DNA from: Herbaspirillum sp. ST 5-3 | Lineage (GTDB): Bacteria; Pseudomonadota; Gammaproteobacteria; Burkholderiales; Burkholderiaceae_D | NCBI RefSeq assembly: GCF_004804275.1 | Contig: NZ_STGI01000007.1 | Location: 1 to 64,000, forward strand | Direction of reading: 5' to 3' | DNA length: 64,000 nt | Part shown: positions 12,036-64,000 of the stretch, one piece after another | Numbering within the stretch: the first letter of the stretch is position 1 | Layout: the number at the start of each line of letters is the position of its first letter | Notes under the pieces: generated by a model | Told to the model about the DNA's origin: nothing | The model's database searches: none | What the model saw: only the letters and a program-made list of their open reading frames with translations | Translations under genes and position numbers: made by a program

Positions 12036-14810
12036 CATTTCTCCGAAGTGGCGGCCGGACCGCCTGGTTCAAGCACGTCTTCCGTCCTTACCCACCTCGC
12101 CGGTCAAGGCCGCCAAGCGTTTTTGAACAGCTTGTCGCAACATGCACGTCTGATCTCGATCGAGACACCGCTCGGAGCCGGCGCGCTGATTGTGGAGCGC
12201 TTCGCGGGACGGGAATCCATGTCCGGCCTGTTTCGGCTCGATGTCGACTGTCTCGCGAGCTCGGCCTACTTCGAACTCAAGGCCCTGATTGGAAAAGAAG
12301 TATCGCTGAGCGTGATGCTCGCTGACGGCCGTAGCCGTTCTTTCCACGGCATCGTCGGCGAGGCCTCACAACTCGGCAGCGACGGCAGCCTTGCAAGTTA
12401 TCGCCTTACGATTGTTCCATGGATGCATCAGCTCACACTGCGGCGCGACAGCTACGTCTTCCAGGACAAGACCGTACTGGAAATTCTCGAAGACATCTTC
12501 AAAGACTACCCGAACGCCAGCTACCGGTTTGACGTCAAGACCGCGCTGCCGCAACGTTCGATCGCAATCCAGTATCGCGAAAGCGACTACGAGTTCGTCG
12601 CCCGCCTGCTGGCGGAAGAAGGTCTGAACTTCTTTTTCGAGCATGAAGTTGAGCAAGCCGGTGCGAATCCCGACGACCACGGCGCAGACATGCGTCATCG
12701 TCTTGTCGTGTTCGACGATAGCGCCGCGCTGCACGCATGCTCGCAATCCGAGATCCGTTTCCACCGCACCGATGTTGCCGAAACCACCGACACCATCACG
12801 CATTTCGTGCAGCGCCGCCAGATCCAATCAAATGCCGTTGCGCTGGCAAGCTGGGACTACAAGAATCTCGTAGCGCACGCCGCAGAAGAATCCGTGCAGG
12901 CGCGACCCGACGCGATACCCACACTGGAAATCTACGAGGGCTCCGGCGCCTATCGCTACACCGACAATGACGAAAGCGCGCGCATTGCCCGGGCAAGGGC
13001 TGAATCGCTCGGCTTCGCCCAACATGTCATCAGTGGAGAAGGGGCGGCCCGAGCGCTGAGCGTCGGCACCTGGTTCTCCCTGATCGGACATCCGGACGCC
13101 GATGGCGACTACGCGGTGCTATCGATCGAACATCGTGGCGCCAACAACCTGGCGCACGGCGCGGCAGAACTGGCGCAGCGCGCGGATATCGAAGCCGGCA
13201 CCTACCACAACCAGTTCACCTGCGCGCCACGCGCCACACCGATTCGCCCCGGATATCATTTTCCCAAACCGGTCGCGCCTGGCGTACAGACTGCATTGGT
13301 GGTTGGTGTCGCCAGCGAGGAAATCACGACCGAACGCGACCATCGCATCAAGATCCAGTTTCTCTGGCAGCGTGGAGCGCGGGCGACACCGGGCCAACTG
13401 GAACACCCGATGTCATCGAACGCGCCGGGTGACAATACGTCCGGCACCTGGGTGCGCGTCGCAGAGCCGGCCGCCGGCGCCAATTGGGGGGCCTCATTCA
13501 TCCCGCGCGTCGGTCAGGAAGTGTGCATTGATTTCATCGACGGCGACATCGACCGCCCGGTCATCGTCGGCCAACTCTACAACGGTGCCGACCTGCCGCC
13601 CTTTCACGGCGGGGACAATCACCCTGGCGCCCTGGCTGGCATCAAGTCAAAAGAATATGGCGCGAGCGGTTTCAACCAGTGGGCGATCGACGACACACCC
13701 GGGCAATTGCGTCAAACAGTGGCGTCGACTTATGAAGCGAGCCAACTGAACATCGGCTACCTGATCCGTCAAAGCGGAAATATCCGGAGTGCTTACCGTG
13801 GCATCGGGTTCGAACTCGCTACCGATGCATGGGCCAGCTTGCGTGCCGGACGTGGCCTCTTTGTCTCCACCGCGCCAAGGGGCGGCGGGGCATCCACCCA
13901 ACTGGACACGCAGGAAGCGCAGGGCAAATTCAAGGCTTCCGGCGAACTCGCAAAAACCCTCTCGGACGCCGCAGCCCAGCACCGCGCATTGTCGCTTTCC
14001 ATCGCCGAAGGCGTGCAGCAATTGAATGCAACGCTCAACGGTAAGGAAAGTTTCGATGGGCAAGAAGCGCCACGAATCAAACACCCCATAGCACTACTCG
14101 ACAGCCAGTCCAGCATCAGCGCTGCCACCCCCGCCTCGTCCGTCCTGTTCGCCGGGCAGGACATCACCGTGACCACCGCATCCACGCTACGCATGACGGC
14201 AGGGCAGGCCGCGACGGTCGTCGCCGCGAAAACGGCATCGCTGTACACGCATGAAGGCGGCGCGAAAGTGTTCGCCGCAAAGGAAGCGGTATCGGTGCGC
14301 GCACACACCGGACCGATGGACGTGCTGGCCGATCAAGCCGCCACCGTCACATCGAGCAACGGCAGCATCAAGGTACAGGCGAAGCAGGAAATTCTGATTG
14401 CCTCCGGTGGCGGGTATATCCGCTTGAAAGGCGGCGATATCGACATCCATTGCCCGGCGTCGGTATCAGTGAAAGGGGTGACGCATGATTTTCTAGGGGC
14501 GGGGAGTAGGGATGCTGATTTGCCTGTGCTACCCAATGCCAAGTCCAGCATCAAGAACTGGATCGATATTGATTATCGCGATCCAGACGGCGAGCCGATG
14601 GCAGGTCTTGGTTACAAGATCAAGTTCGATGAAGGTTCCGTCCTCAGCGGCAAACTCGACGCCTGTGGGCATGCCCACCATGACAATGTTCCTGAATCGG
14701 CGGCGACCGTCACTTACGAAGCGCGCCTCCCTAAAAAGGATGCTCCATGGGATTCACTGCAAATGATGATCGCCAAGGCAAAGTGCCGTTTCGGTCAACC
14801 GTATGAATAA
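12033..14810 (+). CDS. vgrG: type VI secretion tip protein VgrG with DUF2345 and C-terminal extension
   Basis: A 925-residue VgrG (TssI). Residues ~40-430 are the gp27-like part (IQYRESDYEFVARLLAEEGLNFFFEH), ~430-560 the gp5 OB-fold part (GTWVRVAEPAAGANWGAS, then a QLYNGADLPPFHG region), and ~690-835 the repetitive DUF2345 beta-helix. A tail of ~90 residues (836-925) resembling a small beta-sandwich probably docks the effector encoded next. VgrG trimers form the spike tip that carries effectors into target cells. No other T6SS structural gene is in the window, so this is an orphan vgrG island. Nucleotides 13521 to about 13990 are repeated at 17640-18109. Confidence 0.95.
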   Translation: MHFSEVAAGPPGSSTSSVLTHLAGQGRQAFLNSLSQHARLISIETPLGAGALIVERFAGRESMSGLFRLDVDCLASSAYFELKALIGKEVSLSVMLADGRSRSFHGIVGEASQLGSDGSLASYRLTIVPWMHQLTLRRDSYVFQDKTVLEILEDIFKDYPNASYRFDVKTALPQRSIAIQYRESDYEFVARLLAEEGLNFFFEHEVEQAGANPDDHGADMRHRLVVFDDSAALHACSQSEIRFHRTDVAETTDTITHFVQRRQIQSNAVALASWDYKNLVAHAAEESVQARPDAIPTLEIYEGSGAYRYTDNDESARIARARAESLGFAQHVISGEGAARALSVGTWFSLIGHPDADGDYAVLSIEHRGANNLAHGAAELAQRADIEAGTYHNQFTCAPRATPIRPGYHFPKPVAPGVQTALVVGVASEEITTERDHRIKIQFLWQRGARATPGQLEHPMSSNAPGDNTSGTWVRVAEPAAGANWGASFIPRVGQEVCIDFIDGDIDRPVIVGQLYNGADLPPFHGGDNHPGALAGIKSKEYGASGFNQWAIDDTPGQLRQTVASTYEASQLNIGYLIRQSGNIRSAYRGIGFELATDAWASLRAGRGLFVSTAPRGGGASTQLDTQEAQGKFKASGELAKTLSDAAAQHRALSLSIAEGVQQLNATLNGKESFDGQEAPRIKHPIALLDSQSSISAATPASSVLFAGQDITVTTASTLRMTAGQAATVVAAKTASLYTHEGGAKVFAAKEAVSVRAHTGPMDVLADQAATVTSSNGSIKVQAKQEILIASGGGYIRLKGGDIDIHCPASVSVKGVTHDFLGAGSRDADLPVLPNAKSSIKNWIDIDYRDPDGEPMAGLGYKIKFDEGSVLSGKLDACGHAHHDNVPESAATVTYEARLPKKDAPWDSLQMMIAKAKCRFGQPYE

Positions 14811-14831: not shown

Positions 14832-16283
14832 ATGCAAGATGAGTTTGAAAATGCGCTGGCCTGGTTTCGGGCTGCCCCGGCACGCTGGGTGGACTCCGCT
14901 GAAAGAAATCTGGAGGCTGGTGCGGAGTGGGTTTGGGGTGTCATTCAGGGTGATTTCAATGAAGACGCCTCGACTGCCCAAACCATCACGGGAACCGTGA
15001 TCTCGATGATCCCGTTCGTCGATCAACTCTGCGACGTGCGCGACATGGTCGCTTGCTGCAAACGGATACATCGCGACGCGGACAATACCGGCAACTGGAT
15101 TGCACTCACCCTCACGCTGATCGGGCTGTTTCCAACCCTTGGCTCGCTCGTCAAAGGCTGCGGCAAAATTCTGTTTGCTTATGCCCGCAAGGCTGCTTTA
15201 AAGGGTGGAACGAAGGCGGCGGAAATCGCAGCCATCAAGGTTTTGAACGAGAATCTCGAAAAGGGCATCGCCAAGCTCAATGCCTTCCTCGATCGCCCCG
15301 AAGTGCGCAAAACGCTGAAAGCGCTGCATTGGGATAATCCCTATAAGCACCTCGCCGAACAAATACGGGCACTGCGCGCCCAGGTTACGGTAGGCAAACT
15401 GCTGTCAGCCTTTGACAAAGCAATTGCTGCGCTAAAGGAGTTGTTGGAAATTGTGCAGAAATGGGGCGGCACGGGACTTGGCAAACAAGCTGTCGCATTG
15501 TTCGAACTCGTCAACGGCGTGCGCAAGAAGGCCGACGCCATGCTCGGTAAGGTACTCAAACCAGTGCAGGATTGGCTGGACAGGATTGCGCGGCGGCTGG
15601 ATATCGAAGCGGACAACCAGTACCGCGCTTACACGAAAGCAGCCAATGTGCACCGTTTCACCAGGCCAAAAGCGGAAGCGGAAATCGCGGCGTTCGAGAA
15701 GGAAAAACCGAAGTGGGTAGATAAGACGAAGAGAGTGGCGCATGAACCCGCACAAAATGCACCGGTCAAGAATGGTTGGCCGGATCTTGATCCCAAGGTC
15801 AAGCCGGGAGAAAAGCACCCGTTGGCAGAAGCTTATAAAACCTTCGAAGAAGACACCATCAAGCCGGTGACAATTCCGCCGGGTGAGACGCTATACCGGG
15901 TGGTCGATCCCGGCAGCGGCGACAACAGCATCTGCTGGATGCGCAAGGCCGAGTTTGACAAACTGAAAAGCAAGGATGACTGGCGCAGGAAATTCGCGGT
16001 ATGGGCGAGCTGGAACAGCAATGGTGAGTTTGTAACCTATACCGTGCCGCCGGGCAAGGGGTTGAATGTCTGGGAGGGTGTCGTCGGAACACAAAGGCAT
16101 GAAGCTAATGATGCCTACAAACTTGAAGGCGGAGCTATTCAGCTCGTACTCGATCCAAGCGACCTCAAGAAAGAATTTTTGGGAAAGCGGCGGTCTACCA
16201 ACTGGGGCTACAGCAGCTTCGGTGAAACAATGGACTTAACAGGCGTGCCGGTCCTTACCAACAACTGGTTTGAAAAGAAATAA
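14832..16283 (+). CDS. putative VgrG-linked T6SS effector
   Basis: A 483-residue protein encoded 21 bases after vgrG. The N-terminal ~120 residues contain two hydrophobic segments (around TVISMIPFVDQLCDVRD and WIALTLTLIGLFPTLGSL), a pattern I know from N-terminal regions of VgrG/PAAR-linked toxins, where it may aid delivery or membrane passage. Residues ~150-340 are helical and charged. The C-terminal domain (348-483) starts with GETLYRVVD and includes VPPGKGLNVWEG, LEGGAIQLVLD and STNWGYS. The same domain is seen in the broken gene at 18181-18542. The order of R, S and E residues could fit an ADP-ribosyltransferase fold, but this is only a guess. The toxin call rests on position between vgrG and an immunity-like gene. 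Confidence 0.7.
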   Translation: MQDEFENALAWFRAAPARWVDSAERNLEAGAEWVWGVIQGDFNEDASTAQTITGTVISMIPFVDQLCDVRDMVACCKRIHRDADNTGNWIALTLTLIGLFPTLGSLVKGCGKILFAYARKAALKGGTKAAEIAAIKVLNENLEKGIAKLNAFLDRPEVRKTLKALHWDNPYKHLAEQIRALRAQVTVGKLLSAFDKAIAALKELLEIVQKWGGTGLGKQAVALFELVNGVRKKADAMLGKVLKPVQDWLDRIARRLDIEADNQYRAYTKAANVHRFTRPKAEAEIAAFEKEKPKWVDKTKRVAHEPAQNAPVKNGWPDLDPKVKPGEKHPLAEAYKTFEEDTIKPVTIPPGETLYRVVDPGSGDNSICWMRKAEFDKLKSKDDWRRKFAVWASWNSNGEFVTYTVPPGKGLNVWEGVVGTQRHEANDAYKLEGGAIQLVLDPSDLKKEFLGKRRSTNWGYSSFGETMDLTGVPVLTNNWFEKK

Positions 16284-51843: not shown

Positions 51844-53547
51844 ATGGCACGGCCGGAGAAGGTCCGCCTCGGTGAGATTTTGGTGCAGCAGAAGTTGCTT
51901 TCCGAGGAGCAACTTCAGTTTGCGCTAGGTGAGCAGAAGCGGACCGGGCGCAAACTCGGACGTGTCTTCGTTGAGAATGGCTTCGTGACCGAAGAGCAGA
52001 TTTCCGGTGCGCTCGCCAGGCAGCTCAACATCCCCTACATCAATCTCAAGTTCTTCAACATCGATCCGGAAGTGGTACGCGCGCTTCCGGAGACGCAGGC
52101 CCGTCGCTTTCGTGCCATTGCGCTGGAGGGACGTGGCGGATCGATGCTGATCGGGATGGCCGATCCAACCGATCTTTTCGCCTATGACGAAATTTCGCGC
52201 ACCGTAAAGCGGCCGATCGAACTCGCCGTGGTCAACGAAGGCGAACTGCTGCAAACGATTGACCGCATCTACCGCCGCACGGAAGAGATCACCGATTTCG
52301 CGCGCGAGCTGGAAGAGGACCTGGGCGACAGCTATGTCGATTTCGGCAATCTCGGCGGCGCGCCGGGAATCGAAGAGGCGCCGGTCGTCAAGTTGCTGCA
52401 GTCCGTGTTCGACGATGCCACGCAGGTGAGGGCGTCCGATATCCATATCGAACCGCAGGAAGGGCGCCTGCAGATCCGCTTCCGTATCGACGGCGTGCTG
52501 CATCTGCAGACCGAAGCGGACATCAAGATCGCCCAGGCACTCGCTTTGCGCCTGAAGCTCATGTCGGGGCTCGATATTTCCGAGAAGCGTCTGCCGCAGG
52601 ATGGACGCTTTGCGATCAAGGTGAAACAGCAGCAGGTCGACGTCCGTATCTCGACCATGCCGACCCAATTCGGCGAATCGGTCGTCATGCGCTTGCTGAA
52701 TCAAAGCGGCGGCATTCTCAAGCTCGACTCGATCGGCATGCCGCCATCCATGGTGAAGAAATTCCGCGCCATCCTGCAGCGTCCGAACGGCCTCGTACTC
52801 GTCACTGGTCCGACCGGCAGCGGCAAGACGACGACCCTTTACGGCGCGTTGGCTGAATTGAACAGCATGGAACGCAAGCTGATCACCGTCGAGGACCCGG
52901 TCGAATATCGCCTGCCGGGCGTCAATCAGGTGCAGATCAACGAAAAGATCGACCTCACCTTTGCCCGCGTACTGCGTTCCGCATTGCGTCAGGATCCGGA
53001 CGTGGTGCTGGTCGGCGAAATGCGCGATCAGGAAACGGCGCAGATCGGCATGCGCGCCGCACTTACCGGCCACCTTGTGCTATCTACCCTGCATACCAAC
53101 GATGCCGTCAGCACCCCGATTCGCTTGCTCGACATGGGCGTCCCGCGGTACATGGTTGCGACCTCCTTGCAAGCTGTGCTGGCGCAGCGGCTGGTTCGGG
53201 TGATTTGCGAAAGCTGTGCCGAGCCCTACACATTGAAACCGACCGAACAGGAATGGCTGAAGTCGGAGCTGGGCGATACGGTCAATGCCCGGAAATACCT
53301 GCACGGGCGCGGCTGCACCCACTGCAACGGTACAGGCTATCGCGGTCGTACCGGCGTGTATGAAATGCTCGAAATGTCCGAAGCCGTCGCGACCGCCGCC
53401 AATCATCATGACCCGGCCCACTTCATGAAGGTGGCGCAGGAGCAGATGGCTGGCCAGACCCTGCGGCGACACGGCGTCGCATTGGTGGTGGCGGGCAGGA
53501 CTACGGTCAGCGAAGCCATGCGAATCAGCAACCAGTTCGATGATTAA
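51844..53547 (+). CDS. mshE: MSHA pilus assembly ATPase MshE (GspE/PilB family)
   Basis: A 567-residue secretion/assembly ATPase. The N-terminal domain has two MshEN-type motifs (RLGEILVQQKLLSEEQLQFAL and KLGRVFVENGFVTEEQISGAL, residues ~8-60), which in the characterised family bind cyclic di-GMP. A second N-domain follows, then the ATPase core with Walker A GPTGSGKTT at ~322, an Asp box, Walker B region DPDVVLVGEMRD, and a tetra-cysteine zinc element (CESC ... CTHC, ~455-500). It powers pilus extension. AAGGAG precedes the ATG. The metabolic gene upstream ends 100 bases earlier, and a TAAAAT at 51805-51810 is a possible -10. Confidence 0.93.
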   Translation: MARPEKVRLGEILVQQKLLSEEQLQFALGEQKRTGRKLGRVFVENGFVTEEQISGALARQLNIPYINLKFFNIDPEVVRALPETQARRFRAIALEGRGGSMLIGMADPTDLFAYDEISRTVKRPIELAVVNEGELLQTIDRIYRRTEEITDFARELEEDLGDSYVDFGNLGGAPGIEEAPVVKLLQSVFDDATQVRASDIHIEPQEGRLQIRFRIDGVLHLQTEADIKIAQALALRLKLMSGLDISEKRLPQDGRFAIKVKQQQVDVRISTMPTQFGESVVMRLLNQSGGILKLDSIGMPPSMVKKFRAILQRPNGLVLVTGPTGSGKTTTLYGALAELNSMERKLITVEDPVEYRLPGVNQVQINEKIDLTFARVLRSALRQDPDVVLVGEMRDQETAQIGMRAALTGHLVLSTLHTNDAVSTPIRLLDMGVPRYMVATSLQAVLAQRLVRVICESCAEPYTLKPTEQEWLKSELGDTVNARKYLHGRGCTHCNGTGYRGRTGVYEMLEMSEAVATAANHHDPAHFMKVAQEQMAGQTLRRHGVALVVAGRTTVSEAMRISNQFDD

Positions 53548-53582: not shown

Positions 53583-54812
53583 GTGCCGTTCTTTGCATAC
53601 AAAGGCCGCAACGCCCGTGGTGAACTGCTGCAAGGTGTGCTCGAGAGCCCCGACAGCGGAGCGGTTGCGGACCAGCTCTTCAGCACCGGTGTCACGCCGG
53701 TGGAAATTGTCGTGACGAGCAAGCCCGTTTCCGGCCTCGCCGAAGGTTGGTGGACGAAGCTGACAGAACAGAAGATCCGGCCGATCGACGTCCAGCTCTT
53801 CAGTCGTCAGCTCTATACCTTGCTGAAAGCCGGCGTGCCGATCATGCGTGGCCTGGCCGGACTGCAGGAGTCTGCCATCAATAAATCCTTCGCGCGCGTC
53901 GTGAAGGATTTGCGCGAATCTCTGGACTCCGGCCGGGAATTATCGGCCGCAATGCGCCGTCATCCGGACGTGTTCTCCTCCTTCTTCTTGAGCATGGTCC
54001 GCGTCGGCGAAACGACCGGACGCCTGGAGGAAATCTTCCTCCGCTTGTTCGATCATCTGGAATTCGAAAGAGACATGCGGGAGCGCGTCAAGACCGCGTT
54101 GCGTTACCCGATGTTTGTGGTCATGGCAATGGTCGCCGCGATCGCCGTCATCAACCTGTTCGTCATTCCTGCATTCGCTAAGGTATATGCGGGCTTCAAT
54201 GCCAAGCTGCCGCTCATGACGCAGCTGCTCATCAACGTCTCCAATTTCACGGTTCATTTCTGGCCGTTGCTGCTCGCCATGGCGGTCGCTGCGTTCGTCG
54301 CATTCAAAATGTATATCGCGACGCCAAAAGGCCGGTTCCAGTGGGACAAGCTCAAGCTGCGGTTTCCGATTATCGGCAAGATTATTCTGAAGGCGGCACT
54401 GGCGCGTTTCGCTCGCAGCTTCGCGCTCGCGAGCAAGAGCGGGGTGCCGATTGTGCAAGGGCTGAACGTCGTCGCGCAAACCGTGGATAACGTCTATATC
54501 TCAAGCCGCGTCGAACAGATGCGCGAAGGTGTGGAGCGTGGCGAAAGCATCTTGCGCACGGCAGTGACAACCGGCGTATTCACACCCGTGGTATTGCAGA
54601 TGATTGCGGTCGGCGAGGAAACCGGTGAAATCGACGATCTCATGGACGAGATTGCCGCCATGTACGAGCGTGAAGTTGACTACGAACTCAAGACGCTGTC
54701 ATCGCAGATCGAGCCGATCCTGATCGTCGGGCTGGGGATACTCGTGTTGATCCTTGCGCTAGGCGTGTTCCTGCCGATCTGGGATCTGGGCAAGGCAGCT
54801 TTGCAGAAATGA
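53583..54812 (+). CDS. mshG: MSHA platform protein MshG (GspF/PilC family)
   Basis: A 409-residue inner-membrane platform protein with two GspF domains (~70-195 and ~270-395) and three transmembrane helices (near 170, 220 and 380). Signatures include FSRQLYTLLKAGVPIMRGL and FARSFALASKSGVPIVQGL. It couples the ATPase to pilin assembly. The GTG start at 53583 follows TAGGAG. Its TGA overlaps the next gene's ATG (ATGA at 54809-54812). Confidence 0.92.
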   Translation: MPFFAYKGRNARGELLQGVLESPDSGAVADQLFSTGVTPVEIVVTSKPVSGLAEGWWTKLTEQKIRPIDVQLFSRQLYTLLKAGVPIMRGLAGLQESAINKSFARVVKDLRESLDSGRELSAAMRRHPDVFSSFFLSMVRVGETTGRLEEIFLRLFDHLEFERDMRERVKTALRYPMFVVMAMVAAIAVINLFVIPAFAKVYAGFNAKLPLMTQLLINVSNFTVHFWPLLLAMAVAAFVAFKMYIATPKGRFQWDKLKLRFPIIGKIILKAALARFARSFALASKSGVPIVQGLNVVAQTVDNVYISSRVEQMREGVERGESILRTAVTTGVFTPVVLQMIAVGEETGEIDDLMDEIAAMYEREVDYELKTLSSQIEPILIVGLGILVLILALGVFLPIWDLGKAALQK

Positions 54813-55393
54813 CGGGATACGGGCGAACATGCGTGTATGCCAAACAGGGCGGCAATCATCTGCGGGTGTGCAGTCTGCCAGTCGCGTCCGCGAGAAGATC
54901 CGGCGGGTTTTCAATGCTGGAGCTGCTGTCGGTATTCATCCTGATTGGAATATTCGCCACCTTCCTCCTGGACCGGCTCACTTTTTATCAAGAGGCCGCC
55001 GAGAAGGCGAATGTCGAGTACACCATCGCCAACCTGCGGAGTGCCCTGCGAATCCAGATGGCGGTGTTGATTTCCCAAGGGCGCATGCGCGACTTTGCGC
55101 TGCTGGAGCAACAGAATCCAATGGACTGGCTGGAGTACAAGCCCGCGAACTACAGGCTGGTGTCGCGAGACTCCAGTCACGAACCCGGTTATTGGCAATT
55201 CAGCACCGACGATCGGACGCTGACTTACTGGCTGGCGTACGGAAATCATTTTCAAACTGATAAGCCGGAAGGCAAGCGTATTCGACTCCGTGTCCGCTTG
55301 ATCCGTGATGCTTCCAGTCCGCAAGGCGAAACGGAAAGCCCGGTTTTGACCGTTCGCCTTGAACTGGTTGAGCCCTATACTTGGTTCAAATAA
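54809..55393 (+). CDS. prepilin-like MSHA protein (MshF position)
   Basis: A 194-residue protein with an unusually long leader (~33 residues) ending in SGG|FSMLELLSVFILIGIFATFL, a type IV prepilin cleavage and helix motif. It has Glu at position +5 of the mature protein and the helix is hydrophobic. The remainder is a polar globular domain (YWQFSTDDRTLTYWLAYG). By order (mshG, then this, then pilins) it corresponds to MshF. Translational coupling to mshG by ATGA overlap. About 150 bases of AT-rich spacer follow. Confidence 0.8.
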   Translation: MTGYGRTCVYAKQGGNHLRVCSLPVASARRSGGFSMLELLSVFILIGIFATFLLDRLTFYQEAAEKANVEYTIANLRSALRIQMAVLISQGRMRDFALLEQQNPMDWLEYKPANYRLVSRDSSHEPGYWQFSTDDRTLTYWLAYGNHFQTDKPEGKRIRLRVRLIRDASSPQGETESPVLTVRLELVEPYTWFK

Positions 55394-55494: not shown

Positions 55495-55544
55495 TCCCGT
55501 TGACAATAGTGTTTCTGGATTGCACAACTAATCGAGCAGAATAC

Positions 55545-56030
55545 ATGCGAACGAGACAGACTGGTTTCACATTGATTGAACTGGTTGTGGTCATCAGCAT
55601 TCTTGCGCTTCTGGCGGCGATTGCTCTACCAAGGTTCGCTGCTTTGCAGACCGAAGCGCGCATGGCCAAGATGAACGGCGCGCTAGGTTCGATCAAGGCG
55701 GCTGCGACGCTGGCGCATGCGCTGCAATTGGCACAGAATCTTGCGCCGGGATCTGCGGTGACGATGGAAGGGCCGACGGGGAATATCGCCATGGCATTAG
55801 GCTACCCGACGACGGACCTAGCATCGATCGGACGCGCGGCCGGCCTTGTTGATGATTCGAGTAACGCAATTCCGGGCTACTTGCCCGTGAAGACCAGTGC
55901 AACGGTGTTCACGGTCACGCCGGACTTGTCGCACTCGAACTGTTCGGTGACCTACACGGTCCCGGACGGAATAACGACGTTTGCACCCGCCTACAGCAAC
56001 GCAAACATCACCACGGCAAATTGCCAATAG
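55545..56030 (+). CDS. type IV prepilin, MshA/MshB-like
   Basis: A 161-residue prepilin: leader MRTRQTG, cleavage before [24 protein letters not shown], then a globular domain with a C-terminal disulfide-type pair (NC...ANCQ). It closely resembles the adjacent mshA product in its helix and start of the head. ATG 55545 is chosen because it gives the standard short leader. A frame from 55500 adds 15 residues that would follow the promoter. Order suggests MshB or a second major pilin. Confidence 0.88.
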   Translation: MRTRQTGFTLIELVVVISILALLAAIALPRFAALQTEARMAKMNGALGSIKAAATLAHALQLAQNLAPGSAVTMEGPTGNIAMALGYPTTDLASIGRAAGLVDDSSNAIPGYLPVKTSATVFTVTPDLSHSNCSVTYTVPDGITTFAPAYSNANITTANCQ

Positions 56031-56087: not shown

Positions 56088-56477
56088 ATGAACAAGCAAC
56101 AATCTGGTTTTACCCTGATCGAACTGGTCGTGGTAATTGTGATTCTCGGTATTTTGGCGGCGACGGCGTTGCCGAAGTTTGTTGATTTGAAGTCGGATGC
56201 AGAGGCGGCGGCGGTTAAGGGTGTTGCGGGTGCCGTTACGTCCGCGTTTGCGGTTAACTATGGCGCATACGCAGCGAATTCTGCGAAAGCAGTCGCAATT
56301 AGCGCGTCGGCCTTGGATGTGGCCGCTGCTGCTGGCAGCGTTATGGTCGGCGGCCTACCCAGCGGGTACAGCGTGAACCCGACTTCTGCGGCGTGTGGTA
56401 CAGCTGGTGCAACAGTAGCGATCACAGTTTCATCTGGCTCGTCGAGTGCAACTGCAACCTTGATCTGCACTGGCTAA
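56088..56477 (+). CDS. mshA: MSHA major pilin
   Basis: A 129-residue prepilin with leader [34 protein letters not shown] helix, and a small head rich in Ala, Ser, Thr and Val with a cysteine pair (AAC...LIC) near the end. A very strong ribosome site (GAGGAGGAA, 56075-56083) and a partial terminator after the gene fit a highly expressed structural subunit. The Ser/Thr-rich tail is a possible target for the glycosyltransferase encoded at 56968. Confidence 0.88.
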
Positions 56478-56500: not shown

Positions 56501-56540
56501 GAGGCGCCTCGCATTCCCATGCGATGCGCCTCGTGCTTTT
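56501..56540 (+). terminator. hairpin terminator after mshA
   Basis: GAGGCGC (56501-56507) pairs with GCGCCTC (56526-56532). An inner stem CGCAT/ATGCG (56510-56514, 56519-56523) stacks on top and TTTT ends at 56540. It would raise pilin mRNA relative to downstream genes. Confidence 0.7.
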
Positions 56541-56616: not shown

Positions 56617-56943
56617 ATGGTCAAGGTACCGGGGCGGATTGACGAGATTTGCGACAAGCTTTCTGAAGAATTTCGGCGCAGTGTTCCGCTCCAGACCGAT
56701 CGGGGCAAGCGAGGCAAGCGGCTGTCCGAGAGCGAGATCAAGGCCTCCTCGGAATTGGCGTTGAAGAAGTTCTATGAAACGGCCTATCAAGAACGGCAGA
56801 GTCATGGACTCGGGGTGATCGGACGTGCCCGCGTCGCGTTTGGTCTCCAGCAGCGGTTGTTGCAAGCCGGCTATCCCCCCCCGCTGGTAAAGCAAGTTCT
56901 TTTTGCCCTGCTGGCCACGGTTTTTGTCGGTGGTAAGCGCTAA
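56617..56943 (+). CDS. small protein of unknown function in the MSHA locus
   Basis: A 108-residue soluble, basic, helical protein without signal peptide. It lies between the mshA terminator and the TPR/glycosyltransferase gene, in the same direction and 24 bases before the latter, so it is probably co-expressed with it. The C-terminus (LVKQVLFALLATVF) is hydrophobic. The ATG at 56617 has weak upstream support (GGAAG at 56605-56609). I do not recognise a family. Confidence 0.6.
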   Translation: MVKVPGRIDEICDKLSEEFRRSVPLQTDRGKRGKRLSESEIKASSELALKKFYETAYQERQSHGLGVIGRARVAFGLQQRLLQAGYPPPLVKQVLFALLATVFVGGKR

Positions 56944-56967
56944 TTTTCATCAGACGAGACAGGCACG

Positions 56968-59811
56968 ATGAAAAGTCCGGTATCCGTCTTTCCCCGGTTC
57001 GGTGGTGCACTGTGGTTATACACGGGCCGCTGGCTTGATCGTAAGGGACTGACGACTCTGGCCGAGTCCTGCTATAGAAACGGCGCCTCCGGATTCGGAA
57101 GAGCTGCGGCGGAAGCAGGATTTCAATTAAGCCAGCGTCTCATGGCCAGGGATCTCAGCGAGGAAGCGGTCAATGCCTGCCACGAGGCGCTTCGTGCGGA
57201 TCCTGCGCATGCAAAGGCTTGGTGTGCCCTCGGTGCCGCACAACGACGCCTCGCAAGGATGGACGCCTCGCGCGAGGCTTACGAAAAAGCGGTCGAACTC
57301 GATCCGGATTATGCTCAGGCGTGGAGCAATCTGGGCGAATGGTGGCTGGTGAAGGGTGAAACTCATACTTCGCTGGAAAAGATCGAACGCGCGCTGAAAA
57401 TTGAGCCGAGATTGCTGCAGGCATTGAACAATCGTGTTGCGGCCCTGTACGAACTGGGGAAGTTCCAAGATGCGGAGACTGCTGCGCGAGAGGCAATCGA
57501 TTTGCATCCGAATGAGGCGGCGCTTTACGTCAATCTGGGCAACGTGCTGCACCATTCAGGGAAAAAGCACCCTGCTGTAAAGGCATTCCGTAAGGCGCTC
57601 GAATGTGACCCGAACTGCCCGGAAGCAAACCTTGCGCTTTCGGCTTTGCTGGGCGAGACCAAGCGCCTTGCAGAGACGTTGGCATACTTCGAACATGAAA
57701 TTGCCGTCAAGGGTGAGAGCGTACAACGTCTCGCGTCGCTGGCAACGGCGCAGCAGGTCAAGGGTGACCTGCCCGAAGCGGAAGTGACGTGCCAGAAAGT
57801 GCTCAGGATGCAGCCTAACAATGTTTCGGCACTCATTACACTGGCCGCATGCCTGAATGTGAGAGGGGATCATCAAGGTGCAATTCGCCTGTATGAAAGG
57901 GCATTAGCCGTGAACCCGAACATGCCGATGATCTATTCGAACATTGCTTTTGACGCCACCTATCTGCCGTATCTCTCTGCTGATGATGTGTTTGCCTACC
58001 ATCGCGAATGGGCTGATCTCTTCGAAGAACCCTGCGTGGCGAAGGCCTTCAGTTACGAACAATCCCGAGAGGCGGACCGTCCATTGAGAATAGGTTATGT
58101 GTCCGGAGATTTCGGCCTGCATCCTGTGGGTTTCCTGCTCAGGGATGTAATGCGTAACCATGACCGGCAGCAGTTTGCGATTTATTGCTATTCCATGATG
58201 CGCGCCGATGATGACATCACAGAGGCAATTCGATCCAACGCTGATGAATGGATCGATGCGCTGCTGATGAGCGACGACGAATTGGCGGTGCAGATACATC
58301 AGGACCGGATTGACATCCTGGTGGACCTTTCCGGCCATACCGCCTACAACCGCTTGCTCGCATTCGTGCGCAGACCTGCGCCGGTCCAGGCGACCTGGAT
58401 CGGCTACTTCCATTCGACCGGGTTGAAGAACATCGATTACTTCATCACCGATCCGGTAACGACCCCCGCCAATGCCGGACAGCTGTTTTCCGAGACGCCG
58501 GTGTGGCTGCCGCACTCCCGTTTTTGCTACTCGCCGCCTGAGTATGCGCCTGAAATCACGCCCACGCCGGTGCTGGACGTCGGCCATATCACATTCGGTT
58601 CATTCAATCGCGTCGAAAAGCTTGTTGATCCGGTGATCTCGGCCTGGATCAAGATTCTTGAAGCAGTTCCGGGCAGCAGGCTGCTGCTGAAGGCCGGCGT
58701 GCTGGAGAATGAGGGCGTGCGCGATTCCCTGCGCCGTCGTTTTGTCGAACTGGGCCTGAAAGGCGACCGGCTGGAATTGCGCGGGCCATCGCAACATTCG
58801 GAAATGCTGGCGCAGTACGGCGAGGTTGATATTGCCCTCGACCCGTTTCCTTTTAATGGCGGCATGACGACGCTGGAGGCGCTCTGGATGGGAGTGCCGG
58901 TCGTAACGCTGGCCGGCAATAGCGTGGTCTCGCGGCAATCTGCCTCTGCGCTGACCAATATCGGCCTGACCGAACTCATCTTCGATGACATCGACATGTA
59001 TGTTGACGGCGCGATCTCGCTGGCGGACAACATCGAACGTCTTTCCGGATTAAGGCAGCAGATCCGGCGGCGCATGGCAAACAGCCCGCTGTGCCAGTCG
59101 GAACAGTTCACTCACGACCTGGAAACGCTCTATCGTCGCATGTGGCACGCCTGGTTGCGCGGCGAGAGGCTGAGGACCGAGATCGTGCCGGGTACGCCGG
59201 TCGCAAAGAAAAAGGTTCTGCATGTCGGCTGCGGTGCTGCGAACAAGCGCTCGCTGCCCGCACATTTTCAAAATCACTGGCAGGAGATCCGTTTGGACAT
59301 CGAACCGGGCGTCAATCCGGATGTCCTGGCCAGTATGCTTGACATGGCAGCGGTTGAGAGTGGCAGCGTGGATGCAGTCTACTCGTCCCACAATATCGAA
59401 CACTTGTATCCACACGAAGTCGAGGCGGCGCTGAAGGAGTTCAGGCGTGTGCTGAAGCCAGACGGACTCTTGGTGCTGATCTGCACAGACCGGCAATCGG
59501 CGCGCGCGCTGGTCGCCAATGACAAACTCGAAGAGCCCGCCTATGTTGCTCTCGCCGGACCGATCGCATCGAGCGACATCCTGCACGGCCACCGGCCTGC
59601 GATGGCGACGGATAACCTCTTCATGGTACACAAGACTGGCTTTACCGCACGAAGCCTTGAACGAGCACTTCGCGAAAGCGGCTTTGAGACAGCGGTGGTG
59701 GAACGCGGGCCATCCCATGACCTGTGGGCGCTTGCCTATTCAGGGCCGGTGGAGGCGGAACGGATCGAGGGCGACAGGAAAGCCTGTTTTCCCGCATCGC
59801 TCAACCAATAA
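56968..59811 (+). CDS. TPR / SPINDLY-type O-GlcNAc transferase / SAM methyltransferase fusion
   Basis: A 947-residue three-part protein. Residues ~50-330 are TPR repeats (AHAKAWCALGAAQRRLARMDASREAYEKAVELDPDYAQAW). Residues ~365-725 are a GT41 glycosyltransferase (RIGYVSGDFGLHPVGF; DILVDLSGHTAYNRL; DPFPFNGGMTTLEALWMGVPVVTL; SRQSASAL), the fold of O-GlcNAc transferase. Residues ~745-935 are a class I methyltransferase (VLHVGCGAANK at 750; YSSHNIEHLYP; EFRRVLKPDGLLVLIC). Cytoplasmic, no signal peptide. GT41 enzymes transfer a sugar from a nucleotide donor to Ser/Thr (or Asn) of proteins. Placement inside the pilus locus suggests modification of pilin, with the methyltransferase capping the sugar or the protein. 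This is inference. Confidence 0.88.
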   Translation: MKSPVSVFPRFGGALWLYTGRWLDRKGLTTLAESCYRNGASGFGRAAAEAGFQLSQRLMARDLSEEAVNACHEALRADPAHAKAWCALGAAQRRLARMDASREAYEKAVELDPDYAQAWSNLGEWWLVKGETHTSLEKIERALKIEPRLLQALNNRVAALYELGKFQDAETAAREAIDLHPNEAALYVNLGNVLHHSGKKHPAVKAFRKALECDPNCPEANLALSALLGETKRLAETLAYFEHEIAVKGESVQRLASLATAQQVKGDLPEAEVTCQKVLRMQPNNVSALITLAACLNVRGDHQGAIRLYERALAVNPNMPMIYSNIAFDATYLPYLSADDVFAYHREWADLFEEPCVAKAFSYEQSREADRPLRIGYVSGDFGLHPVGFLLRDVMRNHDRQQFAIYCYSMMRADDDITEAIRSNADEWIDALLMSDDELAVQIHQDRIDILVDLSGHTAYNRLLAFVRRPAPVQATWIGYFHSTGLKNIDYFITDPVTTPANAGQLFSETPVWLPHSRFCYSPPEYAPEITPTPVLDVGHITFGSFNRVEKLVDPVISAWIKILEAVPGSRLLLKAGVLENEGVRDSLRRRFVELGLKGDRLELRGPSQHSEMLAQYGEVDIALDPFPFNGGMTTLEALWMGVPVVTLAGNSVVSRQSASALTNIGLTELIFDDIDMYVDGAISLADNIERLSGLRQQIRRRMANSPLCQSEQFTHDLETLYRRMWHAWLRGERLRTEIVPGTPVAKKKVLHVGCGAANKRSLPAHFQNHWQEIRLDIEPGVNPDVLASMLDMAAVESGSVDAVYSSHNIEHLYPHEVEAALKEFRRVLKPDGLLVLICTDRQSARALVANDKLEEPAYVALAGPIASSDILHGHRPAMATDNLFMVHKTGFTARSLERALRESGFETAVVERGPSHDLWALAYSGPVEAERIEGDRKACFPASLNQ

Positions 59812-59970: not shown

Positions 59971-60456
59971 ATGAGACGTCGATCGCTGATGATACATACA
60001 AGAACAACCGGCTTCACGCTCGTCGAACTGATCAGTGTCATGATCATTGTCGGCATTCTTGCCGTGTTCGCGTTGCCGCGCTTTTTCGAACGGCAGACCT
60101 ACGACGCGCGCCGCTTTTATGAAGAAACTGTTTCTATCCTGCGTTATGCGCAGAAAGCGGCGATCGCACAGCGGCGGCTGGTTTGCGTGTCGTTTCCGAC
60201 CAATCATTCGGTACAGTTGAATATCGCATCGACCAATCCGGAGACTGTGGCCGGCGCCTGCGACAAGCCTTTGAGTGGCCCCCAGGGGACGCCTCCCTAC
60301 ACCGTGACGGCGGATGGCAGCGTGACATTTACGGGCACGCCGAACGCGTTCAATTTCGATGCACTGGGCAGACCCACATCCTCGCCGGGCACCATCCAGA
60401 TCACCGGCGCGGCCAATTCCATCGCCGTCGAGGCGGAGACCGGTTATGTCCATTAA
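59971..60456 (+). CDS. mshC: MSHA minor prepilin (MshC-like)
   Basis: A 161-residue prepilin with leader MRRRSLMIHTRTTG and helix FTLVELISVMIIVGILAVFALPRF, then a head containing Cys pairs (VCVSF, GACDK). ATG 59971 is preceded by GGA at fitting distance. An internal ATG at 59989 would leave an eight-residue leader. The frame from 59845 is too long. MshC is a minor pilin thought to prime assembly. Its end overlaps the start of mshD. Confidence 0.82.
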   Translation: MRRRSLMIHTRTTGFTLVELISVMIIVGILAVFALPRFFERQTYDARRFYEETVSILRYAQKAAIAQRRLVCVSFPTNHSVQLNIASTNPETVAGACDKPLSGPQGTPPYTVTADGSVTFTGTPNAFNFDALGRPTSSPGTIQITGAANSIAVEAETGYVH

Positions 60457-61039
60457 CCCACCGCTTCGCCGCATGAACGGCCTCACGATGGTCGAGCTGA
60501 TCATGTTCATCGTGGTCGTGAGCGTCGGCATCGCCGGCATCCTGATGGTGTTCAACGTCGCCGTGAAAGGCAGTGCCGATCCGATGCAGCGCAAGCAGGC
60601 CATCGCGATAGCCGAAGCATTGCTGACCGAGATCGAGCAGCATCCGTTCACCTATTGCGACCCGCAGGATGCGAATGTGTTGACGGCAACGGCCGGGAAT
60701 CAGTGCGCGAACGATGAGGACAAGGGCGGCGCGGCGCTGATCGCTCCGACGCCGGCAGGCGAAACCCGTTACAGCCTGAGCACGCCATTCAACAATGTTG
60801 CCGACTACGGGGGTTTCACCAAGTCGAATATCGACGACATTAGCGGCAACAACGCCATGAGCGGCTACAGCGCGAGCGTCACCATTACGCGCGCCGGAAA
60901 CGGCCTTCCGCAGTCGCCGTCGGCGGTGCCGGACGGTGCCGCGCTCAGGATTCAGGTCACGATTACATACAACAGCGGCAGGGATTCCGTCACCCTGACC
61001 GGCTACCGCCTGCGCTATGCGCCGAATTCTGCAGGATGA
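60446..61039 (+). CDS. mshD: MSHA minor prepilin (MshD-like)
   Basis: A 197-residue prepilin-like protein. The leader MSINPPLRRMNG is followed by LTMVELIMFIVVVSVGIAGILMVFN, a PilV/MshD-type helix where Leu replaces the usual Phe at +1. The head includes CDPQDANV and QCANDEDKGG. ATG 60446 lies inside the end of mshC (11-base overlap), so coupling is likely. The next gene begins five bases after its stop. Confidence 0.85.
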   Translation: MSINPPLRRMNGLTMVELIMFIVVVSVGIAGILMVFNVAVKGSADPMQRKQAIAIAEALLTEIEQHPFTYCDPQDANVLTATAGNQCANDEDKGGAALIAPTPAGETRYSLSTPFNNVADYGGFTKSNIDDISGNNAMSGYSASVTITRAGNGLPQSPSAVPDGAALRIQVTITYNSGRDSVTLTGYRLRYAPNSAG

Positions 61040-61043
61040 CGCC

Positions 61044-61901
61044 ATGCCGATAAGATACTCCTGCAGAAATCGCGGTTTTACGCTCGTGGAGGCGGTTATA
61101 GTCATCGTCCTCACCGGCGTAATCGGCGCGATCGTCGCAGTGTTCATCAGGGCGCCGGTGCAGGCCTATTTCGATACGGTGCGGCGCGCCGAGTTGACCG
61201 ATATTGCCGATACCGCTGTGCGTCGCATGGCGCGCGACATCCAGGCGGCGTTGCCGAACAGCGTGCGCGTGGATGCGACGAGCAGCTTCCTTGAATTCCT
61301 GCCTATCAAGACAGCTGGGCGCTACCGGGCCGCCGTCACGGATACGGGAACGGGGAATCCGCTCGACTTTGACCTGTCCACTCCTGACAGCAGCTTCAAT
61401 GTGCTGGGACCGAATGTGGACGTTCAGAATGGCGACCAGATTGTCATCTACAACCTCGGTATCCCGGGGGCGGATGGCTCGGATGCGTACCAAGGAACCA
61501 GCCGCCGTGCCGCATCCGCACCGTTCGGCAGCGTCAGCAGCATTTCTTTCAGCCCCGCCGGCACGGAGTTCCCTTTCGCCTCGCCCGGGAGCCGCTTCCA
61601 GGTGATCAGCACGCCAGTCAGCTATGTCTGCCAGCCCGATAGCAGCAACCCCGCCAACGGCGTCTTGTATCGCTATTCCGGTTATGCGATCCAGACAAGT
61701 CAGCCTGTCACGGTTGCGGCGCTGGATGGCTACGCCAATCACGTAAGGGCGACGCTGGCGACGAATGTCTCGGCTTGCTGGATGACCTACACTACCGTCG
61801 CGCAGCAGCATCTGGGCCTGGTATCGATTTATCTTGCCTTGACCAAGGATGGAGAAACCGTGCAGCTGCGCTATCAGGTCAACGTGGATAACACGCCATG
61901 A
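61044..61901 (+). CDS. mshO: MSHA minor prepilin (MshO-like)
   Basis: A 285-residue prepilin. The leader MPIRYSCRNRG is followed by FTLVEAVIVIVLTGVIGAIVAVF, and a large head domain characteristic of PilW/MshO-type minor pilins (YFDTVRRAELTDIADTAVRRMARDIQ). ATG 61044 gives the right leader length. Its TGA overlaps the mshP ATG (ATGA at 61898-61901). Confidence 0.86.
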   Translation: MPIRYSCRNRGFTLVEAVIVIVLTGVIGAIVAVFIRAPVQAYFDTVRRAELTDIADTAVRRMARDIQAALPNSVRVDATSSFLEFLPIKTAGRYRAAVTDTGTGNPLDFDLSTPDSSFNVLGPNVDVQNGDQIVIYNLGIPGADGSDAYQGTSRRAASAPFGSVSSISFSPAGTEFPFASPGSRFQVISTPVSYVCQPDSSNPANGVLYRYSGYAIQTSQPVTVAALDGYANHVRATLATNVSACWMTYTTVAQQHLGLVSIYLALTKDGETVQLRYQVNVDNTP

Positions 61902-62407
61902 AGACGCACATGTACGGTCTCTCAATACTGCGCAGGACCCGAGCGCAAGCAGTGATGTCCTTCCGGCAGCGCGGCTTTACGCTCGTCTCGGCCATCTTCT
62001 TGCTGGTGGCTCTGGCGGCGTTGGGAGCGGCAATCGTCAGCGTTTCGACGACCCAGCAACAGACTTCCGCCCAGGATTTGCAAGGGTCGCGCGCGTACCA
62101 TGCGGCGCGCGCCGGGGTCGAGTGGGGTGTGTACCAGGTGATGGATCCGGATAACGCGACTTATAGCCTGCCGGCCTGTTTCGGCAACACCGCGATAAAC
62201 CTGGAAGGCTTCGCCGTCGCGGTCAGCTGCACGAGCCAAACCTTTACCGAAGCGGCCACCCCGGTTCACACGATTGTGGTTTATCAACTGACGTCGACAG
62301 CAAGTGGCGGCGGGGCAGTAGGCGATGTCAATCGTGTCGAGCGGCAGATCAGGGTTTTGGTGAGCAAGTGCGGCGCCACGGTTGGCCCAACGGTTGTGCC
62401 CTGCTAA
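61898..62407 (+). CDS. mshP: MSHA protein MshP (PilX-like)
   Basis: A 169-residue protein with a ~26-residue basic leader ending RQRG and the helix FTLVSAIFLLVALAALGAAIVSV, which lacks the +5 glutamate as in PilX/MshP-type proteins, then AYHAARAGVEWGVYQV, a hallmark of that group, and a small head with cysteines. Start overlaps mshO. It follows the canonical order mshC-D-O-P. Confidence 0.85.
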   Translation: MKTHMYGLSILRRTRAQAVMSFRQRGFTLVSAIFLLVALAALGAAIVSVSTTQQQTSAQDLQGSRAYHAARAGVEWGVYQVMDPDNATYSLPACFGNTAINLEGFAVAVSCTSQTFTEAATPVHTIVVYQLTSTASGGGAVGDVNRVERQIRVLVSKCGATVGPTVVPC

Positions 62408-62495
62408 TAACGGATGAGCGGTACCCGGGCGGGTGCCCGAACGATGCAAGTGCTGCAGCGTGCGGATGCAGGGCGCATGGCGAGGAATGCTGGAT

Positions 62496-64000
62496 ATGAG
62501 AAAAAAACGAAATCTGTTTTCACTGTGGTTGCTGTGCATCGGCCTGATTTTCTTCGGGCCAGCGGCGTTCGCCGACACGATGCCTTCCCTGTATAACAGC
62601 TTCGCCGGTTACGTCAATTTCGTCGGCGCACAGCGCACGCTTCGTACGGGCGACAACACCAGTAATACGACTGCATCATCGCTCGTCAGCGGGGCGACCA
62701 CAGCCGCAGGCTCTGCACTGACAACGGTAACGCTTTCGGGACTTTCGGGCGCTACCATCCGCGCTGCTTATCTCTATTGGGCCGGATCCGGTGACACACC
62801 GGATTACAGCGTCAACTTTGAAGGTAATGCGATTACGGCCGACCGCCAGTACACTATTACGAACGCAGCCGGCGTCACCGGGATCAATTACTTCTCCGGT
62901 GTGGCCGACGTGACAGCGACCGTGACTGCGAAAGGCGACGGCACGTATACCTTTTCCGGATTGACTGTCGAGAATGGCGATCCCTGGTATAGCAGTCAGG
63001 CCGTGCTGGCCGGCTGGGCGCTGCTCGTGGTCTACGAAAACCCCGCTACCGAACGATTTCGCGTGCTTAACGTTTATGAGGGGTTCCAGCCCTTCTACGG
63101 ATCCAACATTCCGCTGACGATCTCGAATTTCCGCACGCCCGCAAGCAATATCGACGGCCGGCTCGGGCATTTGACTTGGGAAGGCGACGTCACGAACTCG
63201 ACATCGCAGAATGGCTTCAGCGAACAGCTTCGGTTCAATTCGACAACGCTCTCCGACACCAGTAACCCGATTGGTAATCAGTTCAATTCCGTGTCTACCA
63301 TCCGCGGGGCTGGCGCGGTGGATACGGCGTCTTATGGCGTCGACTTCGACGCGTATGATATCGGCCCATACCTGACTCCCGGCGCGACCTCGGCAACCTC
63401 GGTCTACAGCTCGGGCGCCGACCTCGTGCTGCTGTCCATGGAAGTCATCAGCGTCACCAACACCCCGGTGGCGGACCTGTCCATTACCAAGGTGCTCAAC
63501 GGTACGCTGAATCGCGGCCAGAACGCCAGCTACGCCATCAACGTCACCAACAATGGTCCGAGCAACGAAGCCGGACCGATCATCGTCAGAGATACTCTTC
63601 CTGCCGGGCTTAGCTTCGTGTCAGCTAGCGGCACGGGATGGTCGTGCAATTTTGCCTCGGGAACCGTCACTTGCACCTACAACAGTAGTCTCGCAAACGG
63701 AACAACGGCGCCAACCGTGACGCTGACAGTCGGCGTCAGCGCATCGGCATCGGGAACGATCAGCAACAGCGCTACCGTTACGGGGACGAATTTCGACAAC
63801 GATAGCGGTAATGACATGGCCACCGACAGCCATGGCGTCGCGAGCGCGGATTTGGCGTTGGCCATGGTGCGCAACGGCGCGCTCACACAAGGCCAGAGTA
63901 CGACCTATACGCTCACCGTGAACAATAATGGACCGCTCAATGAGCCCGGCCCGATTTCTCTGACCTACACCTTGCCATCGGGGCTTACCTTCGTCTCCGG
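62496..64000 (+). CDS. surface protein with DUF11 repeats in mshQ position (3' end outside window)
   Basis: At least 501 residues, still open at the window end. The signal peptide MRKKRNLFSLWLLCIGLIFFGPAAFA is followed by an N-terminal domain (~30-320) of beta-rich sequence (SLYNSFAGYVNFVGAQRTLRT; AAYLYWAGSGD; GWALLVVYEN) that I associate with archaeal/bacterial surface proteins but cannot name securely. From ~325 come tandem DUF11 domains (ADLSITKVLNGTLNRGQNASYAINVTNNGPSNEAGP; then ADLALAMVRNGALTQGQSTTYTLTVNNNGPLNEPGP), each ~115 residues. By position it replaces MshQ and is probably a pilus-associated adhesin. GAGG at 62481-62484 serves the ATG at 62496. Confidence 0.8.
   Translation, partial: MRKKRNLFSLWLLCIGLIFFGPAAFADTMPSLYNSFAGYVNFVGAQRTLRTGDNTSNTTASSLVSGATTAAGSALTTVTLSGLSGATIRAAYLYWAGSGDTPDYSVNFEGNAITADRQYTITNAAGVTGINYFSGVADVTATVTAKGDGTYTFSGLTVENGDPWYSSQAVLAGWALLVVYENPATERFRVLNVYEGFQPFYGSNIPLTISNFRTPASNIDGRLGHLTWEGDVTNSTSQNGFSEQLRFNSTTLSDTSNPIGNQFNSVSTIRGAGAVDTASYGVDFDAYDIGPYLTPGATSATSVYSSGADLVLLSMEVISVTNTPVADLSITKVLNGTLNRGQNASYAINVTNNGPSNEAGPIIVRDTLPAGLSFVSASGTGWSCNFASGTVTCTYNSSLANGTTAPTVTLTVGVSASASGTISNSATVTGTNFDNDSGNDMATDSHGVASADLALAMVRNGALTQGQSTTYTLTVNNNGPLNEPGPISLTYTLPSGLTFVS

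Follow-up and report, generated by a model that had tools for sequence, protein, structure and literature searches.

A modular, pilin-linked GT41 cassette in an MSHA pilus locus of Herbaspirillum sp. ST 5-3 and its possible role in cytoplasmic pilin glycosylation

In a 64,000-nucleotide stretch of the Herbaspirillum sp. ST 5-3 genome (contig NZ_STGI01000007.1, positions 1 to 64,000, forward strand; hereafter the window), we found that two genes, orf108 and a fusion of tetratricopeptide repeats (TPRs), a GT41 glycosyltransferase and a methyltransferase (OGT below), lie between the major pilin gene mshA and the minor prepilin gene mshC of an MSHA pilus locus. Judged from their relatives in other genomes, the two genes form a real, conserved, probably mobile and modular glycosylation cassette that is linked to pilins. 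We favor the reading, with a probability of roughly 0.6, that the cassette (56617-59811) acts as a cytoplasmic device dedicated to glycosylating MshA, in which the prepilin would be O-glycosylated and the sugar then methylated or extended. The cassette probably belongs to the known GT41/FlmG kind, at a place, and probably on a substrate, that we did not find described.

In the classical mshE-Q order, mshA and mshC are adjacent with no gene between them, and the window departs from this order by the insertion of orf108 and the fusion gene. An mshE with a MshEN domain, mshG, pilins, minor prepilins and a secretin are all present, as expected of an MSHA locus, and past the mshQ-like gene the genome continues with PilM-, PilN- and PilO-like genes, the secretin, an AAA ATPase and a TPR gene; the msh letters are assigned by position and by the classical gene order. 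The initial annotation had described a protein of TPRs, a GT41 domain and a C-terminal S-adenosylmethionine (SAM) methyltransferase between the major pilin and the minor prepilins on the same strand, and the open reading frame (ORF), the Pfam matches and the gene order all agree with it. In the 947-aa ORF, the order of Pfam domains is TPRs (best stretches approximately residues 53-325), Glyco_transf_41 (PF13844; 1.6e-57, 195.5 bits against a cut-off of 25, in two stretches, the best at residues 359-519) and Methyltransf_11 (1e-11, residues 751-837). The best solved match of the fusion is SPINDLY, aligned over residues 62-733. His385 and Lys551, which we take to be catalytic, align with SPINDLY and human OGT and are invariant in 11/11 msh-linked GT41 rows, and the LHxGCG SAM motif with the Asp that follows it is invariant in all seven methyltransferase modules aligned; the loss of essential residues was looked for, and both sets are intact. 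The name O-GlcNAc-transferase type holds for the GT41 domain, but O-GlcNAc would be only one candidate for the sugar, as SPINDLY is an O-fucosyltransferase. At the N-terminus, helices at approximately residues 9-40 carry a W..G.W..RKG-like pattern in most members of the clade described below, and our guess is that they could position the enzyme at the membrane.

We compared the locus across a set of 148 genomes of relatives, own genome included, in which five GT41 candidates were scored per genome. A GT41 match at 1e-60 or better is present in 61 of these genomes and mshG (1e-100) in 65. When we read the stretch after mshG, a GT41 gene was found between mshA and mshC in seven loci (own, G014, G050, G012, G001, G098 and G135) and was lacking in 48, while ten loci that were incomplete or had unrecognised downstream genes were left uncounted (L071, L072, L078, L079, L081, L098, L099, L102, L107 and L120). 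The G001 locus was pieced together from two contigs, one of which stops after mshA while the other begins inside OGT. None of the 48 loci had an OGT or orf108 match in the mshA-mshC interval (L113, whose pilin was unrecognised, was placed among them by its mshG-mshC interval). A scan of genome contigs added a locus from a metagenome-assembled genome deposited as Methylococcaceae (L038). Three more genomes, G793, G804 and G592, which belong to other orders of the class, came from a search with the orf108 profile, and in each of them an mshA-type pilin, orf108 and a GT41 gene are closely spaced. In total, 11 MSHA-type loci have a GT41 gene; two Prochlorococcus loci (L040 and L041; 24-26% identity) are outside these counts. 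Because the same gene order recurs in other genomes, a chance arrangement is excluded.

In these 11 loci, the third module differs. The methyltransferase is fused in three (window, G014, G793), a PF13712 GT2-like domain forms the C-terminal part in another three (G050, G012 and G001, the last at 9.7e-5, below the Pfam cut-off), three more (L038, G135, G592) encode a methyltransferase of this kind on its own, directly upstream of OGT, and neither module is present in G804 and G098. By this sequence comparison, the cassette is modular, with an exchangeable third module, and the fusion represents one variant of it. The three-part form is found in 3/11 loci and is not confined to Burkholderiales, as G793 belongs to another order. 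A TPR-GT41-methyltransferase fusion is also present in G102 (L047 8422-10893), in a stretch without msh genes, and so the architecture alone is no sign of a pilus. The GT41 part of the G102 fusion groups with a gene of the C23 cluster of the Herbaspirillum genome; such fusions therefore probably arose more than once.

The genes found between OGT and mshC encode GT2 and GNAT proteins (G012) and proteins of the Methyltransf_23 (G001), FkbM (G098) and TylF (G793) families, the last three of which are known for sugars or small molecules. Because the enzymes in this slot fit glycan finishing, methylation of the sugar appears likelier than methylation of a residue. The initial annotation had allowed for either, and the GT2-like swap together with the glycan-type slot genes favors the sugar and makes the residue less likely. 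That the module acts on protein instead, on a pilin residue or on OGT itself, is unlikely: the fusion by itself shows only that two acts are coupled, and the class-I methyltransferases of this Pfam type act on a wide range of substrates, but replacement of the module by a GT2-like domain in 3/11 loci and the FkbM, TylF and Methyltransf_23 character of the other methyltransferases in the slot speak for a glycan.

In a tree of the GT41 catalytic parts (64 rows; quick method, no bootstrap), 10 of the 11 msh-linked proteins form one clade with a Shimodaira-Hasegawa-like approximate likelihood ratio test value of 99, apart from the 53 other rows. All ten clade members lie at msh genes or next to an mshA-type pilin (seven found by the GT41 protein and three via orf108), and so the concern that GT41 homologues would lie mostly away from pilus genes does not apply to this clade; among the other GT41 genes of relatives, 28 of the 31 loci read are away from pilins. 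These data support a tie between this GT41 protein and MSHA-type pilins. Within the clade, G793 and L038, which come from other orders, fall among rows from the family of the window, with branch values of 82-94, below the starred level. Between the window and L038, identity is 68% for OGT, 62% for orf108, 60% for MshA, 55% for mshE and 46% for mshG, so that both cassette genes exceed the pilus-machinery genes in conservation; between the window and the same-order G098, it is 67% for mshG and 38% for OGT. The cassette has probably moved between hosts, because OGT is 68% identical to that of L038 while mshG is only 46% identical, and because of the GT41 tree. The guanine-plus-cytosine fraction of the cassette (0.55-0.60) does not differ notably from that of the locus and adds no support for transfer. 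A mobile, patchy unit might also be a passenger, that is, a GT41-methyltransferase unit for lipopolysaccharide, capsule or flagellin that sits in the msh locus by chance, and GT41 genes are indeed common in relatives (61/148) and mostly away from pilins. We consider this very unlikely, as a passenger would not be expected to keep, across hosts of different orders, to one clade and one position and to have a partner gene of its own.

The partner gene, orf108 (108 aa), which the initial annotation did not mention, has no family match in Pfam or NCBIfam. A homologue precedes OGT or the separate methyltransferase in 10/10 readable cassette loci, although three of these pairings were found through orf108 and the independent count is 7/7; G001, with a contig break between L062 and L046, was left out. 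The G135 homologue is divergent (22% identity), and in G592 a 220-aa ORF stands between the orf108 homologue and the following cassette gene. At E 1, the orf108 profile matches nothing in a further 59 fetched msh loci (L062-L120, where L062 is the pilin-side fragment of G001 that ends at mshA). The profile found matches in 23 of 399 order-level and 5 of 369 class-level genomes, and a wider profile, into which some of those matches were taken, in 22/148 relatives and 3/349 phylum-level genomes, own genome included in both searches.

Outside msh loci, we read 37 orf108 loci (L152-L168, L176, L185 and L189-L206). A TPR/GT41-profile gene lies within approximately 2 kb in 33 of them, and a GT41 catalytic domain (1e-10) is present in 21. 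By one motif rule, a pilin leader motif, mostly of PilA type, is found in 23/37 orf108 loci as compared to 0/28 GT41 loci without orf108 (Fisher p 3e-8, with kinship ignored and some loci, such as L155 and L156, close kin), and the stretches are of similar length (means of 17.1 kb and 17.5 kb). The pilin motif and the GT41 domain occur together in 16 of the 37, and a flagellin motif is found in 2/28 GT41 loci without orf108. For these counts, L176, L185 and L061 (G097; orf108 approximately 5 kb further, L206) were moved from the 31 GT41 comparison loci to the orf108 group, and L207 (orf108 E 1.3e-4, no TPR gene or pilin) and a 15-aa pilin leader at the L192 edge were excluded before counting. 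Distant relatives of orf108 thus also lie near pilins in pilus loci of a second, PilA-bearing kind. The predicted structure of orf108 (two-row alignment; predicted local distance difference test score, pLDDT, 68) has four helices and no strand, and a Foldseek search against the PDB gave no usable match (best E 0.25). With no domain or confident fold match, and with 16/37 non-msh loci lacking a GT41 catalytic domain in the stretch, orf108 might have nothing to do with glycosylation and instead be a regulator or an assembly factor that travels with the pilin. We find this doubtful, given that the fetched OGT-less msh loci have no match to it and that a TPR/GT41-profile gene accompanies it in 33/37 other loci.

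Other loci with orf108 relatives show further features. A second orf108 locus of the Herbaspirillum genome (L189, C8:8000-27900) contains an orf108 paralogue, a PilA-type pilin, a GT25 gene and three TPR proteins, one of which weakly matches Glyco_transf_9, and is likely a second pilin-modification locus. In G804, orf108 and OGT are preceded by four tandem mshA-type pilin genes, and the fetched stretch showed no mshC-P genes (L150 10073-12485). In L154 (5601-7985), a PilB/MshE-like ATPase that carries an extra GAF domain is encoded near a PilA-type pilin and an orf108 relative, and similar loci have MshE-like matches.

The pilin encoded just upstream of the cassette was described at the outset as having a Ser/Thr-rich tail, and 14 of its last 35 residues are Ser or Thr. 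Across loci, the Ser/Thr fraction in the last 35 pilin residues is 0.36 in 10 cassette loci and 0.27 in 42 without (Mann-Whitney p 0.0007), which speaks for the pilin as acceptor. The target could instead be a different surface protein of the locus, with the large adhesin MshQ as the chief candidate and the minor prepilins as others. An MshQ-like surface protein of large size lies downstream, OGT of L038 has a large adhesin-like ORF immediately after it, and GT41 enzymes of the HMW1C type modify an adhesin, as reported in the portion of PMC3012730 consulted. We regard this as quite unlikely, since the constant neighbor of the cassette is an mshA-type pilin, since no mshQ match was found in the fetched stretches of G804 and G592, which do carry the pilin, orf108 and OGT, and since orf108 relatives accompany PilA-type pilins.

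Between mshA and the cassette, the interval that holds the hairpin folds at z -2.99 or lower in 6/9 intervals folded, the exceptions being G050, G098 and G804. A terminator scan gave 5 matches against 4.9 expected and missed the hairpin after mshA, and a promoter scan gave 1 match against 2.1 expected. In P. aeruginosa, a terminator separates the pilin from its accessory gene, according to the extract of PMC11841053.

Human OGT, SPINDLY and XcOGT, which are O-GlcNAc or O-fucose transferases, resemble the fusion in their TPRs, their GT41 catalytic part and the catalytic His and Lys; in contrast to them, the fusion has a C-terminal methyltransferase and lies in a pilus locus. HMW1C-type modification of adhesins takes place in the cytoplasm. 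These enzymes are likewise GT41 proteins with an exported adhesin as substrate (PMC3012730) but are N-linked, and the fusion scores 37.8 bits against a cut-off of 1000 on the UDP-glucose:protein N-glucosyltransferase model NF049992. The closest parallel in mechanism is FlmG of Caulobacter crescentus, whose TPR part binds flagellin, with glycosylation in the cytoplasm. As far as the sections of PMC7591256 consulted describe it, FlmG is a cytoplasmic protein with an N-terminal subunit-binding TPR part and a C-terminal GT-B-type part, features that the fusion would share if its proposed binding and location are right. It differs in having flagellin as substrate, in needing pseudaminic acid, in its 596 residues without a third module and in that those sections describe no orf108-like partner, whereas the fusion neighbors a type IV pilin. 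TfpO/PilO, TfpM, PglS, PglL and TfpW have type IV pilins or pilin-like proteins as substrates, and several are encoded near these; TfpO/PilO, TfpM, PglS and PglL are, in the extracts of PMC12645811 and PMC11841053, periplasmic oligosaccharyltransferases that use lipid-linked glycans and are not GT41 enzymes. TfpX/Y/Z are accessory genes right after the pilin, with a terminator between, and are described with three transmembrane helices and a periplasmic domain (same extract of PMC11841053); for orf108, four helices are predicted at low confidence. In the Herbaspirillum genome, a PglL_A profile had no match, nor did it in 14 controls, and is uninformative; three Wzy_C proteins are present, which may be ligases or oligosaccharyltransferases. 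The view that such a modification is undescribed for MSHA pili stands within the open-licence PMC titles and abstract starts searched, where we found none that describes such a system.

By analogy with FlmG, we infer a mechanism that covers substrate, site, sugar and donor, activity, order of steps and the roles of orf108 and the hairpin. The TPR part, aided by orf108, would bind new prepilin before or during its entry into the membrane, and the GT41 part would use a nucleotide sugar to add a single sugar to Ser/Thr in the C-terminal loop of the pilin. The attached module would then complete the tag, with the methyltransferase capping the sugar here and the GT2-like domain extending it in relatives, and the modified pilin would take the ordinary MSHA assembly route. 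The hairpin after mshA would allow an excess of pilin over the enzymes.

Several points weigh against this mechanism. Prepilins reach the membrane early, which leaves little time for a cytoplasmic enzyme. The cassette is present in only 7/65 mshG loci (10 unreadable), and its presence on a quick mshG tree (8 plus, 48 minus) requires at least 5 changes; as it is patchy, MSHA pili do not need it. The G098 OGT falls outside the msh-linked GT41 clade, and in L150 and L151 the fetched stretch contains pilin, orf108 and OGT but no mshC-P. The genes in the slot are not all of glycan type, as they include an extra pilin (G050), the adhesin-like ORF of L038 and the 220-aa ORF of G592, which has no Pfam match. 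The higher Ser/Thr fraction of MshA tails with OGT is only suggestive, because the comparison has related rows and may include, among the 42 without the cassette, last pilins other than MshA. In an AF2 model of the fusion (four-row alignment; mean pLDDT 57), the TPR helical repeats mostly have high pLDDT and the catalytic parts are poor, so the catalytic pockets cannot be judged. Among the 37 non-msh orf108 loci, 14 lack a pilin motif, 4 lack a TPR/GT41-profile gene within 2 kb, and 16 lack a GT41 domain at 1e-10, so that the neighbor there would be a different or unclassified TPR protein. Finally, a 2025 review, in the extract consulted, assigns pilin glycosylation to oligosaccharyltransferases and cytoplasmic glycosylation to flagellins (PMC12645811).

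We also put forward, tentatively and at less than even odds, a wider proposal: a second, cytoplasmic route of type IV pilus glycosylation, separate from periplasmic oligosaccharyltransferases, in which a TPR glycosyltransferase and an orf108-family adaptor would recognise prepilin before translocation and interchangeable modules would finish the glycan, in MSHA and PilA-type loci of Burkholderiales and other Gammaproteobacteria, moving as a cassette and sometimes perhaps with the pilin. Our confidence in this route and in the MshA device is tempered because the GT41 domain is found in only 21/37 non-msh loci and because 3/10 orf108 pairings were found via orf108.

Table 1. The MSHA locus of the window and the inserted cassette.
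Feature	Position	Strand	Basis
mshE-type assembly ATPase with MshEN domain	51844..53547	+	Pfam T2SSE 7.7e-134, MshEN 7.8e-18
mshG-type inner-membrane platform protein	53583..54812	+	Pfam T2SSF 5.5e-56
Prepilin-like protein in mshF position (named by position)	54809..55393	+	Weak GspG-type match 3.2e-4, below cut-off; place conserved in related loci
MshB-like prepilin	55500..56030	+	N_methyl 1.4e-8
MshA-like major pilin, C-terminal part Ser/Thr-rich; proposed acceptor	56088..56477	+	N_methyl 5.5e-10; Ser/Thr 14/35 last residues
Terminator-like hairpin after mshA, then short T-rich stretch	56501..56532	+	Interval fold z -4.55
orf108, small protein outside known families; putative transferase partner/adaptor	56617..56943	+	No Pfam/NCBIfam match; homologues precede OGT
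TPR-GT41-methyltransferase fusion, 947 aa, ATG start	56968..59811	+	ORF and Pfam
TPR region, ~residues 46-325; proposed pilin-binding part	57103..57942	+	Pfam TPRs; helical repeats in AF2 model
GT41 catalytic part, ~residues 359-733	58042..59166	+	Pfam PF13844; SPINDLY alignment to residue 733
Class-I SAM methyltransferase module, ~residues 742-947	59191..59808	+	Methyltransf_11 751-837; LHxGCG and Asp
mshC-like minor prepilin (start chosen by eye)	59971..60456	+	GspH 1.6e-5; N_methyl 3e-4, just below cut-off
mshD-like minor prepilin	60359..61039	+	PilV-type match 1.7e-5, below cut-off; conserved order
mshO-like minor prepilin	61017..61901	+	N_methyl 2.8e-6
mshP-like	61898..62407	+	Position and homologues
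mshQ-like large adhesin, 1701 aa in total, extends beyond window	62433..63998	+	DUF6701, DUF11, Laminin_G_3

In three same-genus genomes (G007, G009 and G010), an insert of approximately 3.5 kb is found between mshA and mshC (L074 3561-6998; L080 and L083, reverse strand). We considered this insert as a second glycosylation set and rejected it, as by eye it encodes an MshQ-like adhesin of approximately 1130-1165 aa; it accounts for the three of the 48 loci without the cassette that carry an MshQ-like gene in this interval. Elsewhere in the Herbaspirillum genome, a flagellin gene lies near a GT41 gene cluster (L052, C23:228000-247900) in which one open frame of approximately 2100 aa has several GT41 matches, and this cluster probably serves flagellin glycosylation. 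Within the window, a VgrG-like type VI secretion protein (12033-14810, by eye) is followed by a 483-aa ORF (14832-16283) that could be its cargo.

Pilin glycosylation is usually regarded as periplasmic chemistry. If our reading is true, a cytoplasmic GT41 route to modified pilin, with its own partner protein and exchangeable finishing domains, would alter the way in which pilin modification is looked for, with the orf108 family as a sequence marker for finding such systems. It could also account for the surface variability of MSHA-type pili, and it would provide a compact two-gene system for putting sugars on exported proteins.

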